From positions 1 to 36,230 of the IMG/VR virus record IMGVR_UViG_3300020472_000079: DNA of 36,230 nucleotides. One strand, given 5' to 3'. This document shows positions 4,179 to 17,141 of the stretch, piece after piece; the first letter of the stretch is position 1; the number at the start of each line of letters is the position of its first letter. The stretch comes from a virus. Made by a program: the position numbers and the translations under genes. Under the pieces are notes generated by a model. It was given only the letters and a program-made list of their open reading frames with translations. It was not told the DNA's origin and searched no databases.

Positions 4179-4185
4179 AATCTTC

Positions 4186-4193
4186 TCTAAATA
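4186..4193 (+). promoter_or_regulatory. Late-promoter-like box upstream of gp26
   Basis: TCTAAATA, one mismatch from TATAAATA, begins 8 nt after the upstream stop and ends 28 nt before the gp26 ATG. An identical box stands before the gene at 18897. Confidence 0.55.
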
Positions 4194-4221
4194 AACATAC
4201 TGAAATAATCTATAGGATATT

Positions 4222-4941
4222 ATGCCTTTACCAAAGATTGCGACACCGACATATGAGTTGGAACTTCCCTCAACTGAACAAACAATTAAATATAGACCTT
4301 TCTTAGTTAAGGAAGAGAAATTACTTGTTATTGCACTGGAGAGTGAAGATAATAAACAGATCACTAATGCTATTAAAGCTGTTATTAAAGGATGTATCCT
4401 TACAAAAGGAATCAAAGTAGAAACACTTCCTACATTTGATATTGAATTTTTATTCCTTAATATTAGAGGTAAATCTGTTGGAGAAGAAATTGAAGTGAAT
4501 GTTTATTGTCCAGATGATGGTGAAACTCAAGTTCCTGTGACAATTAACTTAGATGACATTCAAATTCAAAAGAATGAAGATCATACTAATAAAATCAAGA
4601 TCGATGCTAATGTGATGATGGAGATGAAATATCCTTCTCTTGATCAATTTATTAAAAATAATTTTGATTTTAATGAAAAGAATGCAATGGATCAATCTTT
4701 TGAATTGATTGCTTCTTGCATAGGTAAGATCTATACAGAAGAGGAAGTATGGTCAACTGCAGACTGTACTAAGAAAGAAGTGAAGGAGTTTCTTGAGTCT
4801 ATGAATTCTACACAATTCAAAGATATAGAGAAGTTTTTTGAAACTATGCCTAAACTATCTCATACAATTAAGGTTAAGAATCCAGCAACAGATGTTGAAA
4901 GTGACGTTGTACTTGAGGGTTTAGCGTCTTTTTTCGGGTAG
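4222..4941 (+). CDS. 26: gp26 baseplate hub assembly protein / tail chaperone
   Basis: A 239-residue protein matching the T4 gp26 baseplate hub assembly family (T4 member 208 residues). It starts LPKIATPTYELELPSTEQ, followed by KYRPFLVKEEKLLVIALES and a middle PTFDIEFLFLNIRGKSVGE, all characteristic of this family. The C-terminal half (about 130-239) is largely helical. It is a non-structural factor needed for hub assembly. An AGGA-containing sequence lies shortly upstream of the ATG. Four bases before the TAG stop is the heptamer TTTTTTC in the X-XXY-YYZ phase. A -1 slip there would fuse gp26 to the next ORF, as in lambda gpG/gpGT tail-assembly chaperones. Confidence 0.88.
   Translation: MPLPKIATPTYELELPSTEQTIKYRPFLVKEEKLLVIALESEDNKQITNAIKAVIKGCILTKGIKVETLPTFDIEFLFLNIRGKSVGEEIEVNVYCPDDGETQVPVTINLDDIQIQKNEDHTNKIKIDANVMMEMKYPSLDQFIKNNFDFNEKNAMDQSFELIASCIGKIYTEEEVWSTADCTKKEVKEFLESMNSTQFKDIEKFFETMPKLSHTIKVKNPATDVESDVVLEGLASFFG
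4929..4935 (+). promoter_or_regulatory. Candidate -1 ribosomal frameshift site
   Basis: The heptamer T-TTT-TTC lies in the correct phase of the gp26 frame (codons TCT TTT TTC GGG TAG). After a -1 slip the ribosome would read CGG GTA GGC ATG and continue in the next ORF, giving a product of 303 residues (238 + RVG + 62). A 9-bp hairpin follows at 4956-4978. The heptamer and frames are seen directly; slippage is inferred from the known tail-chaperone mechanism. Confidence 0.7.
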
Positions 4942-4943
4942 GC

Positions 4944-5132
4944 ATGATTCATATGAACCTAGAGTCTTACTTTAGGTTGAATTTTTCTTTGATGCAGTAT
5001 CATAAATACAGCTTAACAGAGATTGAAAATCTTATTCCTTGGGAACGAGATATCTATGTTGGTCTCCTTCAAGCACACCTTGAAGAGGAAGAGTTAAAGC
5101 AAAAGCAACAAAGAGCGAATGCCAGCTACTAA
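4944..5132 (+). CDS. Small gp51-position protein, possible frameshift domain of gp26
   Basis: A 62-residue ORF containing LNFSLMQYHKYSLTEIENL and WERDIYVGLLQ, ending in a charged helix (EEEELKQKQQ). It occupies the place of T4 gene 51 (hub assembly) between gp26 and the tape measure, but is much shorter than T4 gp51 (249 residues). Short helical segments of this kind, with a W-x-R-D/E core, are typical of the 'T' extension of tail-assembly chaperones made by -1 frameshift. It lies in the -1 frame relative to gp26, two bases after its stop, and the frame is open back to the slippery site. It may be translated from its own ATG, as a fusion, or both. It overlaps the next gene by 14 bases. Confidence 0.65.
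   Translation: MIHMNLESYFRLNFSLMQYHKYSLTEIENLIPWERDIYVGLLQAHLEEEELKQKQQRANASY
4956..4978 (+). other. Hairpin downstream of the frameshift site
   Basis: A 9-bp stem (4956-4964 with 4970-4978, one G-U pair) closes a 5-nt loop TCTTA. It starts 20 nt after the slippery heptamer, further than the usual 5-9 nt for a stimulatory element, so its role is uncertain. It has no U-tract and is not a terminator. Confidence 0.45.
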
Positions 5133-6933
5133 GTTTGAAAAAGGAAAAGTTAAGGAGAAGATAGATCCAAAGGTTTTATCTGCTCTTAGTAATGCCTTTG
5201 GATATAAAGTAGATGACGTTGATGATTTGGATTATGAAGAATATCATAATGAGTTAAGAGAAGCAATACAAATAGGAAAAGAATCACTGTCTTCAGCAGA
5301 GATGGGTCTTCTTGTCATGGAGAGGAAGAGAATTAGATCAGAGAAGTCTGTATATAAAGAAGACTTTAAAGAGAAAAAGACAACGATGACTGCTGCTGAT
5401 ATAAAGAAAGGCAGTGCGATGCAACTCGCAGAAAATAGTGCTCTTTCATTATATAAGGGTGGAGTTGGTCAATCTTCTGAAGAAACTGATGAGAATTTAG
5501 TAGATATTGAAGATAAACTTGATGATATATTAGAGAGTTTAAAGGAAGAAGGAAAGTTAGGAAAAGATCAAGCAGCAGCAGCAAAAAAGAAGGCAGAGCA
5601 AGAAAAGAGAGCAAAGAAAGAAAAGAACTTAGAAAGGTGGACAGCATTAAAAAAGACTACCAGTAAAGTACTTAAACCATTTAGAAGTATATGGGATAAA
5701 ATATTTGGATTTCTTAAAACAATTCTTTTAGGAAGTGCTTTATTTAATATTATAAAATGGATGGGTGATCCTCAGAATCAAGATAAACTTAATAATATTT
5801 TTAGATTTTTTAAGGATTGGTGGCCAACTTTATTAGCAGCATATCTGTTGTTTGGTAACGCCTTTGGTCGAATGGCAGTCAAGTTAGGTGTGATGGTTAG
5901 TAAGTTTGCCGTCAGACTGTTAACTAAACTTATACCTAAACTTTTATTAGGATTAGCAAAAATCAAAGCAGGATCATTATTGAAGGGAGGTCTTGTTACT
6001 GGTGCTGTAGTTGGAACGACTCTCCTTATGGGTAAGATGATAGGTAAGGATAAAGAAGGAGAGAATCTAGCAGAAGCACAGAATCAATCAAGAGAAGCAA
6101 TAGTAGATGAAGGAAATATGGATGAGGGTGAGGCAGGTGTATTGAGTCAGTCAGTAGTATCGAGTGATATTGGTAGAATGACACAAGGAGATACTAATAT
6201 TAGATCCGACACTAATATGCTCCAAACAGGGATGAATGATCCTTTAGGTGGTGGTTTAGGTGGTGATAGATTAGGACTTAATGAAGGTGGAGAAGTTCCT
6301 GGTCAAGGGGATACTGATACAGTTCCTGCTATGCTAACTCCTGGTGAGTTTGTGATGAGCAAGGGTGCAGTTGAGAAGTATGGTGCTGATACTATGGCAG
6401 GATTGAATGCAGCTGCTGGTGGAACTAATAAACCAACAATAGCAAGTAATACTTCAGGAATAACAGGCGGTCTTGGAGGAAGTGGTGGTGGTACAGACAA
6501 TGCTATTAATGATGCTTTTTCTGATTACTTGAGTGGTGAAGATCAGTCTATTAGTCCTACTACTTCTTTAGTCCCTGCAGGTAGTAGTGGAATAGTTCCT
6601 ACTGGAGGAGATCCTGAAAAAACTAGTAAACCTTCTATTCAAGGATTGCGGGGTGGTGGTTTAGTTCCTATTCAAGGATTGAATAGCGGTGGTTTAGTTC
6701 AAGGTTTCCAAGGTGGAGATCAGGTTAGAAAAATGGAAATGGCACCATCAACAGTAAAGGTTCCAAAAATTAATCCACCAGTTAAAAAGAGTCCTGTAGT
6801 TCTCACTCAAAAGATACAGAATATTTCTAAGAAGAATCAAGCATTAAGTAATACTGGTACTAAAATTCCAGAATTTGATGCAGAAAAATATATTTCAGTA
6901 CAGAAAATAAAAACATTGGGGATAACAGTATAA
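5119..6933 (+). CDS. Tape-measure-like tail protein 1
   Basis: A 604-residue protein, close in length to the T4 gp29 tape measure (590 residues). Residues 100-185 are a highly charged predicted coiled coil rich in K and E. Hydrophobic segments follow at about 194-216, 234-260 and 285-310, as in tape measures, which can insert into the host membrane. Around residues 390-425 is the sequence DTVPAMLTPGEFVMSKGAV followed by an N-A-A-A-G-G stretch. This 'VPALLTPGEFV' motif recurs in phage tape-measure proteins. The C-terminal third is glycine-rich and then lysine/proline-rich. It follows directly after the chaperone pair, the classical chaperone-to-tape-measure order. It overlaps the upstream ORF by 14 nt. 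A tail fibre is unlikely given this context. Confidence 0.65.
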   Translation: MPATKFEKGKVKEKIDPKVLSALSNAFGYKVDDVDDLDYEEYHNELREAIQIGKESLSSAEMGLLVMERKRIRSEKSVYKEDFKEKKTTMTAADIKKGSAMQLAENSALSLYKGGVGQSSEETDENLVDIEDKLDDILESLKEEGKLGKDQAAAAKKKAEQEKRAKKEKNLERWTALKKTTSKVLKPFRSIWDKIFGFLKTILLGSALFNIIKWMGDPQNQDKLNNIFRFFKDWWPTLLAAYLLFGNAFGRMAVKLGVMVSKFAVRLLTKLIPKLLLGLAKIKAGSLLKGGLVTGAVVGTTLLMGKMIGKDKEGENLAEAQNQSREAIVDEGNMDEGEAGVLSQSVVSSDIGRMTQGDTNIRSDTNMLQTGMNDPLGGGLGGDRLGLNEGGEVPGQGDTDTVPAMLTPGEFVMSKGAVEKYGADTMAGLNAAAGGTNKPTIASNTSGITGGLGGSGGGTDNAINDAFSDYLSGEDQSISPTTSLVPAGSSGIVPTGGDPEKTSKPSIQGLRGGGLVPIQGLNSGGLVQGFQGGDQVRKMEMAPSTVKVPKINPPVKKSPVVLTQKIQNISKKNQALSNTGTKIPEFDAEKYISVQKIKTLGITV

Positions 6934-10674: not shown

Positions 10675-10941
10675 ATGTCAGAAATCAAACACGATTTAGA
10701 CCACGAAGTCTACCTTGACCCTAAAGATGGTAAAGAGCATACTAATCATGGTATGCACGAGTATACTAAAGAAGACTTAGAATCTTCTCATGCTTATTAT
10801 GATGAATATCATAAAGGTGAAGAGGTAGATACTAATGATGCTAAAATTAATGATTGGCATACAAGGCACGAGGATAGTCATTTAGAAATCTATTGTGATA
10901 ATCATCCTGATGCAGATGAATGTAAGGTATACGACGATTAA
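10675..10941 (+). CDS. CP12-like C-terminal domain protein
   Basis: An 88-residue acidic, histidine-rich protein. The last 20 residues, HLEIYCDNHPDADECKVYDD, carry the CP12 C-terminal signature: C74 and C83 separated by eight residues with a central N-x-P, followed by K-V-Y-D-D. In cyanobacteria and plastids this redox-controlled disulphide loop inserts into GAPDH and, with the rest of CP12, inhibits the Calvin cycle together with PRK. Cyanophages are known to carry CP12 genes. The N-terminal cysteine pair and the AWD-x-VEEL core are not visible, so only GAPDH binding would be expected. It stands between the hub gene and the gp5-like gene, three bases before the latter, behind its own late-type box. 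A structural protein with a coincidental motif is possible but less likely. Confidence 0.65.
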   Translation: MSEIKHDLDHEVYLDPKDGKEHTNHGMHEYTKEDLESSHAYYDEYHKGEEVDTNDAKINDWHTRHEDSHLEIYCDNHPDADECKVYDD

Positions 10942-12740: not shown

Positions 12741-15700
12741 ATGTCAGAATTTAATCTCTTCGGACCCGCTACTAAAGATCAAATTAGAGTTGCTTATATC
12801 TCTACTGAGAGAGGATTGGTTGATAATGTAACTGTTTGTGAGGCAAATAGTTATGCACAATTAAATCCAGGTACTCAATTTATTTTTAGTAATAGAGAGT
12901 TTACCAAATATATGAATATTAATGGAGTTAATAAACTGACTCCTGATGACATGACACCAACGCAAGGGTGTGATGGTATTGAAATGACTAAGGAATGTGG
13001 TCCTCCTCAAGTATTCTTTTCTGGTGGAGATGGAATTGGTATTAAGGGAAATCCTATCATTGGACAAGATGGTTCAATAATGGCAATTGATTTAGTTTCT
13101 GGTGGATTTGGTTTTCAATCTCCACCTCATGTTGAAGTAAAGGATAATTGTGGAATTGGTGCAGGTGGTAATTTTAGAGCAGAATTGGGTGATATAGCCG
13201 AAACTGTAGAATATTATGATTTAGAAGAAGATTTTGAAGAGTATGAAATATGTAACGCTATTAGTGATATTACTGCATATGGTGATGTATATGGTAGAAG
13301 ATTTGGAGTAAATGGTGAGGACTTGGGAGTGTGGGAACCCAAGATGTATGCAAACTTTGATAATGATCCTATACGTAAGGAGATTGTAAAGTATCAGCAG
13401 GTTCTTCAAGAAGGAACTAATCCTTTTTGGACTACTAGAAAGCAATCTCCATTATCTTTGACTGGTGAGAAAGGAACCACTAGAAGGGTATATAATGTTG
13501 ATGCTCCTCGTGCATGGGGCGATTTCATGAATACTTATGCAGTATCACCTAAACCTAAATCAAATGCATCTGGTAGTGATTTTGCAGGTATACCCTATAC
13601 CTTTGTATGGGAAGAAGAATTTCCTTATGATGGGGAGTATATTTTTAGAGCACAGTGTGATAATAAAGCAGAACTTTATTTTGATAATTTACCACTTTCT
13701 AATTTTAAAATAGGATTTGGTGGAGCTGCAGGACATACACTATCTGCTCCTGAATCAATTAAAAAAACTGTAAAAGCAGGTGTTCATCAGATCAGAGTTG
13801 ATTTGTTGAATCTTCCTATTATGGAAACTATAATAGAACAGGAACCTGTTGCTACAGATGAATCAACAACTAAAACTGTAGTATATGTTGGGTTACATGG
13901 TGCAAATAAACCTATTAGAGTAACTGAAGATAAGAAAGGAATTGAATTAAAAGATGGTGATGGTGATGATACTAATTGTTCTTTGCGTATTAAGTCGGGA
14001 GATTTAAAATTTTCTGATGATGGTAAGAGTATTATAGGACCTGGCACTGCCACTATTGAAATGAATTGGAATGATAGACCTCGTACTGCTGGAGTTGCTG
14101 TTGAAAAGATTACCATAGCAGGTACGACATGGACTCAAGCAGGTCGTAGTGGTACTGAAACACATCTAGTTACCATAGATGCTCCACCTAAACCTGTAGT
14201 AAAGTCTACAAAATCTCAAGAGATGGAGATTAGTAAAGTTTTTAATACTATTGATTATATGAATAAGGCTAATAGGCCTCTTTGGAGAACTAATGTTATT
14301 AATAAGGGTGGATTTATAAATGAGTATGGAGTTTGTCCTTTTGATACTAGAGTTACTTTAGATGATAACCCTTATGCAGGAACTCATACTATTAGGTGGA
14401 ATAATATTAAATTTCCTATTGATGGTAATTATGATATAGGAATACAAGTAGATGATAATGTTACTCTTCATATTGAAGACCCGACAAGAGGGACAAAAGA
14501 AACAATAAGAAAGATTGGATTTGCTGGTGATACTAATACAAGCACTGGAAAATCTAATTATGTAAGGAATTTTTTAAAGGGTACATATACAATCACTGCA
14601 GAATTAGAACAAATACCTGGTGGTAGATTTGGATTTGAACCTGGTGTTCCTGCGGGATTTTCTAAAATTATTTACAATGGATTACATCCAGCAAACAATC
14701 CAATTAGAGTTGTTAATGCTGGTAAGAAAATTGAATTAAAAGATGGACATGGTAATGATGCTAATGCAACTTTACAGATCACTTCTGGAAATGCTCTTTT
14801 TTCTGCTGATGGACAAAAATTAGAAGGTTCTGGTGAGGTTAGATTAGCATTCTCATGGAATGATAGAAGAACTGCTGGTCGTGCTATTAATAGTATTAGA
14901 ATTGGAACTGCTACTTTTAAAAGAAGTGGTACTAGTGGTAATTCTTCTCATACTGTAATTGTAGGTAACGATTTAAAGGGTGTTAATCCTATGGCTTTAG
15001 CAGTTAATATAGAAACTGCTTTCACAGCAAAGCAGGTTATTTCTGCCAAATCTTGGAATGAAAATCCTATGGGGATTGCATTAACCATTGATTCACCTGA
15101 TCCTCCTATACCACAAGAAAAGATACCAGAAGCACCTGGTAGATGTCCTAGAAATCCAATGTGGAGTACTAGACATCCAAATGCTGATCAAAAATGGTAC
15201 CCTGTAAGAATTGAAGGTTGGAGTTCCTTTCTTAATCGTTATGCTATGTCTCCAGTTCCACCTAGAGCTGATGTAAGTAGTGATGCTGGAGGAACAGTAT
15301 TTACAAGCACTTGGCAACAAGAAATTCCTTATAGTGGTTTCTATAAACTTAGAGCAGAAGTAGATGATATTTGTAGAATTTATGTTAATGGTGTAAAACA
15401 GATAGATCTTTCTAGAAGAGTAGATAAGATAAGAGGAGAAAAGAAATTCTTCATAGTTGGTGGAGACGATGTAACTGCGGAAATAAAAGTTGAAGTAGAG
15501 AATTATGATACTACAGTTTATGAAACCATAGATAAAAAGATTTTTAACACTGCTGATTGGGCAGTTACTAAAAAACAGATTATTGGTGGTGGATCTAATA
15601 GTGTAGATATACCCTATGTTGGATTACATCCTGCTAATAAACCTATTAGAGTAACTAGTGATGGTAAGAAAGTTGAACTGAAAGATGGTCATGGTGATGA

Positions 15701-17141
15701 TGCTAATGCTTCCTTTACTATTACTAGTGGAGATGTAAAATTTTCTCCTGATGGTAAGAAGATAGAAGGTACTGGATCTGCTACTTTAGTATTGTCATGG
15801 AACGATAATCCAAGAACTGCAGGTGTTGCTATAGAAAGTATTACTCTTAGTGGTAAGACATGGACAAGAAGTGGAAGAAGTGGTAGCCAAACTCATGTTA
15901 TTGATATGGGTGCTGCTTCTGTAGAAACTGCTGGATCTACTGCGGGTGGAACTTCTAAAGATGGTGTGAGTTATACTGGACCAGAATTAGCAACTTATAC
16001 TAGTGGAGAGTTAGGTGCTGCATTAACTCCAAAATGGGATTTTACTGGTGATGCTAAGATTGATAATGAAAATTATCGTTCTAATTATATGGATAAGGCA
16101 TGGACTTCGACATGGAGTAGTGTTGAGTTTCCTGAGGATGGACAATATCAGATTCAATGTATGGTTGATGATACATTAAGTATAAAATTAGATGGTGTTG
16201 AGATAGCAAAAACTTTTATAGGAGAAAATCTTATTCCAGGTCAAAATTATAGAGTATCTCCAGTAAAGACAGTAACCTTTAATGCTATTAAAGGAAAGAG
16301 AACCTTAAGTGCTACTTATACTAATATTCCAGGAAATCAAGGTAGTACTTTTTATACTAATCCTGTACATTTTTCTTTTAAAATTACAAGGAAAATAAAT
16401 GTTGGTAGTGGAAATAGTAGATCATGGGTTGATAATCCCATTGGTATATCTGCTGTTCTTATTCCACCTCCATGTCCTAAGGTAGTATCTGGAAAGGGTA
16501 CTGTTACTAAGGTTATAGTAGATGATCCTGGAAATGGATTCCCTAAACCTGATGGTGATGGTTATCCTGTGGGTCTTGGTTTATCTGCCATAAACATTAC
16601 TGATTGTGGAATAAACTATGATTGTAGTAAAGATAGATTGGTGATTGAACCTAGTAATGGTGCGAGTGCATCATTAATATGTGATAATTTTGGTAGAATT
16701 TCTGATGTAATTGTTGATGAACCTGGTCTTGGTTTTACTGAATGGCCTTCGATAAGAATTGAAAGAGATCCTGGTGTTGGAGCTCCAGATGATCAACCAA
16801 CTGGTGTTAACTTTGAGGCAGTTCCAGTTTTTGATATAATACGTGATCCTATTGTGGTAAATAGGGATAAGTTACTTCAAGTAACAGATTTAGTTGGTGT
16901 TAAACAAACTGGATATTATGAGGGAAGACCTTACTATGGTGCTGTTTTCTATAAAGATAATGTTCGTTATGCTGGTTGGTATGAAACTGTTGGAGAGTTA
17001 GTTCAGATCTATGATACTCTACAAGAGAGTATTGACGCTGAAGTTACTACACCTCAATCTGCGATCCTTAGACAGGGTAGTGATGTTTCTAGTAATGATC
17101 CTAAACTTAATATTCCAGGTACTCCTGAAAACTTAACTTAA
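12741..17141 (+). CDS. Large repeat virion protein with PA14-like modules
   Basis: A 1466-residue protein beginning five bases after the gp5-like gene. It has an N-terminal region with a GSIMAIDLVSGGFGF motif that recurs near the C-terminus. Four PA14-like segments follow, centred on FVWEEEFPYDGEY, IRWNNIKFPIDGNY, STWQQEIPYSGFY and STWSSVEFPEDGQY, each followed by a D-D/D-N core (for example QVDDNVTLHI). Three copies of a roughly 100-residue module start YVGLHGANKPIRV, YNGLHPANNPIRV and YVGLHPANKPIRV and contain K-x-x-ELKDG-x-G-x-D and SWNDR/NPRTAG. PA14 domains bind carbohydrate in other systems. I recall large VrlC-like proteins at this place in marine T4-like phages, but cannot verify this. 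A tail-tip or baseplate adhesin is inferred. Confidence 0.6.
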   Translation: MSEFNLFGPATKDQIRVAYISTERGLVDNVTVCEANSYAQLNPGTQFIFSNREFTKYMNINGVNKLTPDDMTPTQGCDGIEMTKECGPPQVFFSGGDGIGIKGNPIIGQDGSIMAIDLVSGGFGFQSPPHVEVKDNCGIGAGGNFRAELGDIAETVEYYDLEEDFEEYEICNAISDITAYGDVYGRRFGVNGEDLGVWEPKMYANFDNDPIRKEIVKYQQVLQEGTNPFWTTRKQSPLSLTGEKGTTRRVYNVDAPRAWGDFMNTYAVSPKPKSNASGSDFAGIPYTFVWEEEFPYDGEYIFRAQCDNKAELYFDNLPLSNFKIGFGGAAGHTLSAPESIKKTVKAGVHQIRVDLLNLPIMETIIEQEPVATDESTTKTVVYVGLHGANKPIRVTEDKKGIELKDGDGDDTNCSLRIKSGDLKFSDDGKSIIGPGTATIEMNWNDRPRTAGVAVEKITIAGTTWTQAGRSGTETHLVTIDAPPKPVVKSTKSQEMEISKVFNTIDYMNKANRPLWRTNVINKGGFINEYGVCPFDTRVTLDDNPYAGTHTIRWNNIKFPIDGNYDIGIQVDDNVTLHIEDPTRGTKETIRKIGFAGDTNTSTGKSNYVRNFLKGTYTITAELEQIPGGRFGFEPGVPAGFSKIIYNGLHPANNPIRVVNAGKKIELKDGHGNDANATLQITSGNALFSADGQKLEGSGEVRLAFSWNDRRTAGRAINSIRIGTATFKRSGTSGNSSHTVIVGNDLKGVNPMALAVNIETAFTAKQVISAKSWNENPMGIALTIDSPDPPIPQEKIPEAPGRCPRNPMWSTRHPNADQKWYPVRIEGWSSFLNRYAMSPVPPRADVSSDAGGTVFTSTWQQEIPYSGFYKLRAEVDDICRIYVNGVKQIDLSRRVDKIRGEKKFFIVGGDDVTAEIKVEVENYDTTVYETIDKKIFNTADWAVTKKQIIGGGSNSVDIPYVGLHPANKPIRVTSDGKKVELKDGHGDDANASFTITSGDVKFSPDGKKIEGTGSATLVLSWNDNPRTAGVAIESITLSGKTWTRSGRSGSQTHVIDMGAASVETAGSTAGGTSKDGVSYTGPELATYTSGELGAALTPKWDFTGDAKIDNENYRSNYMDKAWTSTWSSVEFPEDGQYQIQCMVDDTLSIKLDGVEIAKTFIGENLIPGQNYRVSPVKTVTFNAIKGKRTLSATYTNIPGNQGSTFYTNPVHFSFKITRKINVGSGNSRSWVDNPIGISAVLIPPPCPKVVSGKGTVTKVIVDDPGNGFPKPDGDGYPVGLGLSAINITDCGINYDCSKDRLVIEPSNGASASLICDNFGRISDVIVDEPGLGFTEWPSIRIERDPGVGAPDDQPTGVNFEAVPVFDIIRDPIVVNRDKLLQVTDLVGVKQTGYYEGRPYYGAVFYKDNVRYAGWYETVGELVQIYDTLQESIDAEVTTPQSAILRQGSDVSSNDPKLNIPGTPENLT

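Follow-up and report, generated by a model that had tools for sequence, protein, structure and literature searches.

The window analysed here is the whole of a 36,230-base virus record from a marine T4-like phage, and the features of its gp26 locus lie on the plus strand. It encodes a gp26-like protein of 239 aa (positions 4222 to 4941, with a TAG stop at 4939–4941) that is predicted to be a short tail-assembly chaperone (TAC-N). The 3′ end of this gene reads GAG GGT TTA GCG TCT TTT TTC GGG TAG. A slippery heptamer, T TTT TTC (4929–4935), sits two codons before the stop, and it was found, as claimed in an earlier sequence-only reading, in the X XXY YYZ phase of gp26 and followed by GGG TAG. 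Past the slip, the −1 frame begins CGG GTA GGC ATG ATT, runs RVGMIHMNLESYF... and ends at 5132. Translation of this −1 extension (RVGMIHMNLES..., 4935–5132; gp51-like, putative TAC-C) also agreed with that reading, in that the frame is open until the stop at 5130–5132 and yields a gp26-gp51 fusion of 303 aa. Gene callers would instead list a stand-alone small ORF of 62 aa in the same frame (4944–5132), which lacks a good SD.

In-phase T TTT TTN is rare in the window (only 4 among the 9,666 codons of its long ORFs), and gp26 alone among these ORFs has a canonical X XXY YYZ within 10 codons of its stop. The gene contains a second in-phase X XXY YYZ, G GGT TTA (4917–4923), twelve bases before the main heptamer and likewise close to where the open −1 frame begins; its bases are variable among relatives.

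The end of the −1 ORF is overlapped by a possible tape-measure protein gene (5119–6933, 604 aa), which resembled tape-measure PHROGs only weakly and over short stretches (best 6.8e-6). Gene 51 of T4 is separated from the tape-measure gene 29 by genes 27 and 28. Further along the window, amid tail genes, an 88-aa ORF (10675–10941) matches the CP12 domain (PF02672, E = 2e-7) as well as phrog_2603/627. Cyanophages are known to encode CP12, which regulates the Calvin cycle. A 1,466-aa protein, also in the tail region (12741–17141), has a match to the PA14 domain (E = 1e-13).

Conservation of the heptamer and its codons

The nearest relatives of gp26 were found in the Synechococcus myoviruses SynMITS9220M01, Bellamy and S-SM2 (82% identity), of which S-SM2 is classified as Kyanoviridae. 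In a close set of 80 IMG/VR relatives (gp26 identity 71–86%), T TTT TTC was present in all 80 with the stop one codon on, and the −1 frame was open for approximately 60 codons, with one contig stopping short. A wider set of 328 usable gp26 ORFs was obtained by adding loci fetched with S-PM2, P-HM2 and phiN3 queries and 17 annotated phage regions, and the search patterns that retrieved relatives excluded the heptamer stretch. In-phase T TTT TTN was found near the gp26 stop in 323 of these 328 ORFs (TTC in 286, TTA in 22, TTT in 15, none in 5), and where the second Phe was replaced, the substitute was Leu encoded by TTA, with all six Ts retained. The sequence-only reading had proposed an alignment of related phage genomes for conservation of the heptamer and −1 frame, and comparative sequence analysis establishes that the heptamer, its phase and the frame are indeed conserved. 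The heptamer also occurs in Acidovorax phage ACP17, Aeromonas phage 65, Schizotequatrovirus-type Vibrio phages and Rhizobium phage IG49. Queries for further relatives with the gp26 of Vibrio K475 retrieved no loci, and those with T4 gp26 retrieved six only.

The five exceptions comprised four Vibrio/Ackermannviridae-type phages and one Tevenvirinae phage with a separate gp51. The former four have kept the −1 extension, and their site reads CTT TTC, CTT TTT or ATT TTC. These loci (L088, ~4180–4400; L089, ~4180–4405; L091, ~4200–4445; and L093, ~4250–4450; Vibrio K475/D494-type, Ackermannviridae) have no X XXY YYZ, and any shift in them would have to use another site, perhaps through a single-tRNA slip on T TTC.

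Codon choice at the site is strongly constrained. The first Phe codon was TTT, and the codon preceding it ended in T, in 271 of the 271 unique frameshift-type loci used for codon statistics, which were selected for the heptamer (the independent figure is 323/328). That preceding codon was one of eight (AGT, TCT, GAT, AAT, GCT, GGT, ACT or CAT), encoding seven amino acids. In synonymous variability the two heptamer Phe codons ranked lowest (first and second) among 61 conserved columns. The four other conserved Phe columns had mixed TTT and TTC, matching codon usage, and Phe is encoded by TTT just 70% of the time overall. The Phe-Phe pair itself is generally conserved in gp26, including T4 (KEFFELL). 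However, the codons at this place are GAG TTC TTT in T4, whose gp51 is separate, and GAA TTC TTC in a Cronobacter relative, neither of which forms an in-phase heptamer. On these sequences, T4 and its close relatives with a separate gp51 may be regarded as a natural control for the heptamer. A divergent T4-type relative (L339) has GAG TTT TTT, without the preceding T.

The gp51-like frame and T4 genes 26 and 51

The gp26 protein belongs to the PF12322 family (E = 1.5e-76, score of 257 against a cutoff of 24.5) and matched phrog_150 (E = 9e-80). The 303-aa fusion matched phrog_150 end to end (1–287 to 5–280, E = 1.3e-89), and its residues 193–301 matched phrog_634, the gp51 family, whereas the phrog_634 match of the stand-alone small ORF was limited to profile positions 60–119 of 121. 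T4 gp51 (249 aa) was itself found to match PF12322, the gp26 family, over residues 1–201 (3.9e-52), and the gp51 family over residues 147–246. The long form thus has the same domain order as T4 gp51, a gp26 domain followed by the gp51 C-terminal domain, a make-up that the profile comparisons make plain. Based on this composition and the end-to-end match of the fusion, T4 gp26 and gp51 correspond to the predicted short and long products. The earlier statement that T4 has separate genes 26 and 51 can accordingly be sharpened: gp51 combines a complete gp26-like domain with the domain of the small ORF. The two T4 genes lie on opposite strands. A full-length gp51 query matched 1,340 phage records, with no cyanophage among the matches listed, and in an Acinetobacter phage record gp26 as well as gp51 already bears the name "tape measure protein assembly chaperone."

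An AlphaFold model of gp26 was confident (pLDDT of 87) and matched gp26 proteins of other phages. In a fold search of the PDB with this model, the HK97 tail assembly chaperone 2OB9 ranked second with a non-significant score (E = 0.85, probability of 0.28), which only hints at a fold common to the predicted gp26 structure and 2OB9. A PDB sequence search with the gp26 profile gave no match.

The small ORF could alternatively be a second gene, translationally coupled to gp26, in which case ribosomes that terminate at 4939 would reinitiate at ATG 4944 (or 4953), and a free gp51 of 62 residues would result. ATG 4944 is only 2 nt past the gp26 stop in the window, and public records, such as those of S-PM2 and P-SSM2, list gp51 as a gene of its own. 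Nonetheless, the first ATG in the −1 frame lay anywhere from 1 to 33 codons past the slip across the 271 loci. No ATG was present in the first ten −1 codons of 103 of them, and in one (L067) the earliest start of any kind was codon 14. Nor was any SD detected before the first possible small-ORF start in the 271 loci (median anti-SD pairing of −0.1 versus −3.9 kcal/mol at gp26). Moreover, conservation extends to the −1 residues encoded ahead of any start (R, I/V/L, A/G/S, L/M, then H), coupling would leave the invariance of the heptamer without a reason, and T4 gp51 carries a fused gp26 domain. Hence, we consider a coupled second gene very unlikely. The choice of stop codon also points to use of the −1 frame: gp26 ends in TAG in 210 of 271 loci (77%), compared to 51 of 531 other ORFs (10%), a bias that is expected if the bases of the stop also encode −1 residues. 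Judging by these comparative data, gp26 and the gp51-like ORF very probably constitute one tail-assembly chaperone gene, with short and long products made via a −1 slip.

Candidate stimulators around the slip site

A candidate upstream stimulator, the SD-like GAGGG (4915–4919), lies 9 nt before the heptamer. A scan for anti-SD pairing from 200 nt upstream to 60 nt downstream showed that mean pairing with the 16S 3′ end was strongest just upstream of the heptamer (−6.7 versus a mean of −0.5 kcal/mol, 271 loci), where the peak 8-mers end 6–9 nt before it. The element falls on conserved Glu-Gly codons, and part of its conservation is thus protein-driven. Nonetheless, Glu was encoded by GAG in 155 of 238 cases at this site versus 292 of 941 elsewhere, and GAA was linked to GGG here (p = 4.5e-4), as compared with a background of p = 1. 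An SD-like element approximately 10 nt upstream, as a dnaX-type cassette requires, is therefore present, with a putative function.

The 45 nt past the heptamer had a mean folding energy of −10.0, compared to −5.0 ± 1.0 elsewhere, and folded more stably than synonymous recodings in both the window clade (z of −2.3) and the P-HM2 clade (−3.1; controls −0.2 and −0.7). For the window alone, folding z-scores were modest (−1.3 to −1.9). Among 77 relatives in the window clade, a five-pair stem (4946–4950 with 4955–4959) had two-sided changes at all five pairs. This covariation amounted to 46 two-sided cells versus 8.8 ± 4.1 when shuffled (0/500 shuffles, in counts that ignore the relatedness of the sequences), and it collapsed when the stem was slid. 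In the window, this conserved hairpin position (GAUUC AUAU GAACC, 4946–4959, 10 nt past the heptamer) forms four of the five pairs, the remaining one being an A-C mismatch. Another hairpin, AACCUAGAGU CUU ACUUUAGGUU (4956–4978, −10.8 kcal/mol, z of −1.9 versus synonymous recoding), is predicted to be more stable and is the window's own strongest, but conservation was seen only for the other stem, and this one begins approximately 20 nt past the heptamer versus the usual 5–9 nt. Because of the A-C mismatch and the stabler competing structure, the argument for the window contig is weakest at the hairpin.

The distance from heptamer to hairpin was 10 nt in the window clade and 5–6 nt in the P-HM2-like and related clades. 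Single-register pair counts in the mixed P-HM2-like set gave no covariation, which is attributable to two sub-clades with registers two bases apart; the second register had modest covariation support. Six loci (L227, L236, L238, L239, L240 and L249) have perfect or near-perfect hairpins of 7–8 bp just past the gp26 stop (e.g., GGCUCUC-ACAU-GAGAGCC), starting 5–6 nt past T TTT TTA, in a register two bases off that of P-HM2-like phages.

The run of six Ts also raises the prospect of transcriptional slippage, which would give mixed mRNAs and a long form made by ordinary translation. Such slippage has been described in bacteria for A/T runs that are longer, about nine (PMC5009743). The run here has only six Ts, its codon phase is the same in every positive locus although slippage during transcription would not depend on it, and the flanking SD-like and hairpin elements fit a ribosomal event, making this explanation exceedingly improbable. 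The probability is negligible that a chance poly-T over the Phe-Phe pair, which is conserved even in T4, merely adjoins an overlapping downstream gene, given that both Phe codons and the wobble base before them are fixed despite 70% TTT usage and variable other Phe columns, and that stop choice and RNA folding provide independent signals.

For the ribosomal −1 slip, we see about an even chance that a more far-reaching proposal is right: that the cyanophage chaperone frameshift uses a full dnaX-like three-part cassette, with a hairpin register that drifts between lineages, that TAG is kept at the end of gp26 by −1 reading, and that a single ancestral frameshift gene gave rise, via duplication in the T4 group, to genes 26 and 51.

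Proposed short and long chaperone products and known systems

From these sequence comparisons we infer that ribosomes slip, how efficiently they do so, what the stimulators contribute and that the proteins act as chaperones. On reaching 4939, most ribosomes would terminate and release a 239-aa product, the short form (TAC-N). In a minority, the two tRNA-Phe at TTT TTC (P and A sites) would shift back by one base to T TTT TT, and translation would continue to 5132, producing the long form (TAC-NC, 303 aa). Slippage is probably made more efficient by the SD-like GAGGG behind the site and the hairpin ahead, much as in the Escherichia coli dnaX cassette. If lambda gpG/gpGT is a guide, the short form, in many copies, and the long form, in few, may cover the tape-measure protein and bring in tail-tube subunits. 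Chaperones of the lambda type are not known to occur in virions. T4 would make the same two proteins from separate genes 26 and 51, the latter with its own copy of the gp26 domain.

Frameshifting is reportedly kept in several T4-like groups, T4 being said to use genes 26 and 51, according to the abstract of a 2022 study by Vladimirov and colleagues. The PRFect paper (PMC10885494) credits that study (Vladimirov, Gautam and Davidson 2022, Virology 566:9–15) with identifying the chaperones for tail assembly in T4-like phages, and cites it for members of this group in which the short chaperone and the fused long one have a gene each. A second paper, PMC12846349, cites it for poly-T −1 signals in T4-like TAC-N genes. 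Hence, the sequence-only reading was right to propose a G/GT-type pair made by a −1 slip, for which the conserved heptamer, phase and frame provide strong comparative evidence, but wrong, going by these citing papers, to regard it as undescribed in T4-like phages. A 2016 review (PMC5009743) described G-T frameshifting as conserved in long-tailed phages, with T4 as the exception.

As far as those citations convey, the 2022 chaperones resemble the present case in having gp26/gp51 as TAC-N/TAC-NC and poly-T −1 signals, whereas the window is an undescribed IMG/VR cyanophage contig, and the SD-like element, TAG bias and covarying hairpin did not come up in the papers covered. Lambda gpG/gpGT and other TAC frameshifts (Xu, Hendrix and Duda 2004) share with the mechanism proposed here the −1 slip near the end of the short ORF, the tail-gene setting and the minor long form, although the heptamer here is T TTT TTC rather than the lambda site. 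The putative three-part arrangement of an SD-like element upstream, a heptamer and a hairpin downstream is shared with the E. coli dnaX cassette (PMC3711429), which, however, belongs to an unrelated gene; slippage in the window would give the longer product, and the hairpin is further off (10 nt or more in the window clade). The TAC locus of Vandenendeviridae/Andersonviridae (phage Adele, PMC12846349) similarly combines a conserved −1 frame with a poly-T motif at the TAC-N end, but there the motif is GTTTTT and the phages are of other families. In the literature covered, in which the 2022 Virology paper was represented by the papers citing it, we found no description for cyanophages of the SD-like element, the hairpin or the bias towards TAG. 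The kind of system is thus already known, having been proposed for T4-like phages in 2022 according to those papers, and the stimulators are details that we did not find reported.

The evidence for stimulators makes the cassette directly testable in a reporter. In many cyanophage records, the entry "gp51" probably does not represent a protein of its own, and annotations such as "baseplate hub subunit" and "hub assembly catalyst" would hide a tail-assembly chaperone pair. The long-standing exception of T4 to the near-universal frameshift of long-tailed phages would likewise be explained by its having the two forms in separate genes.
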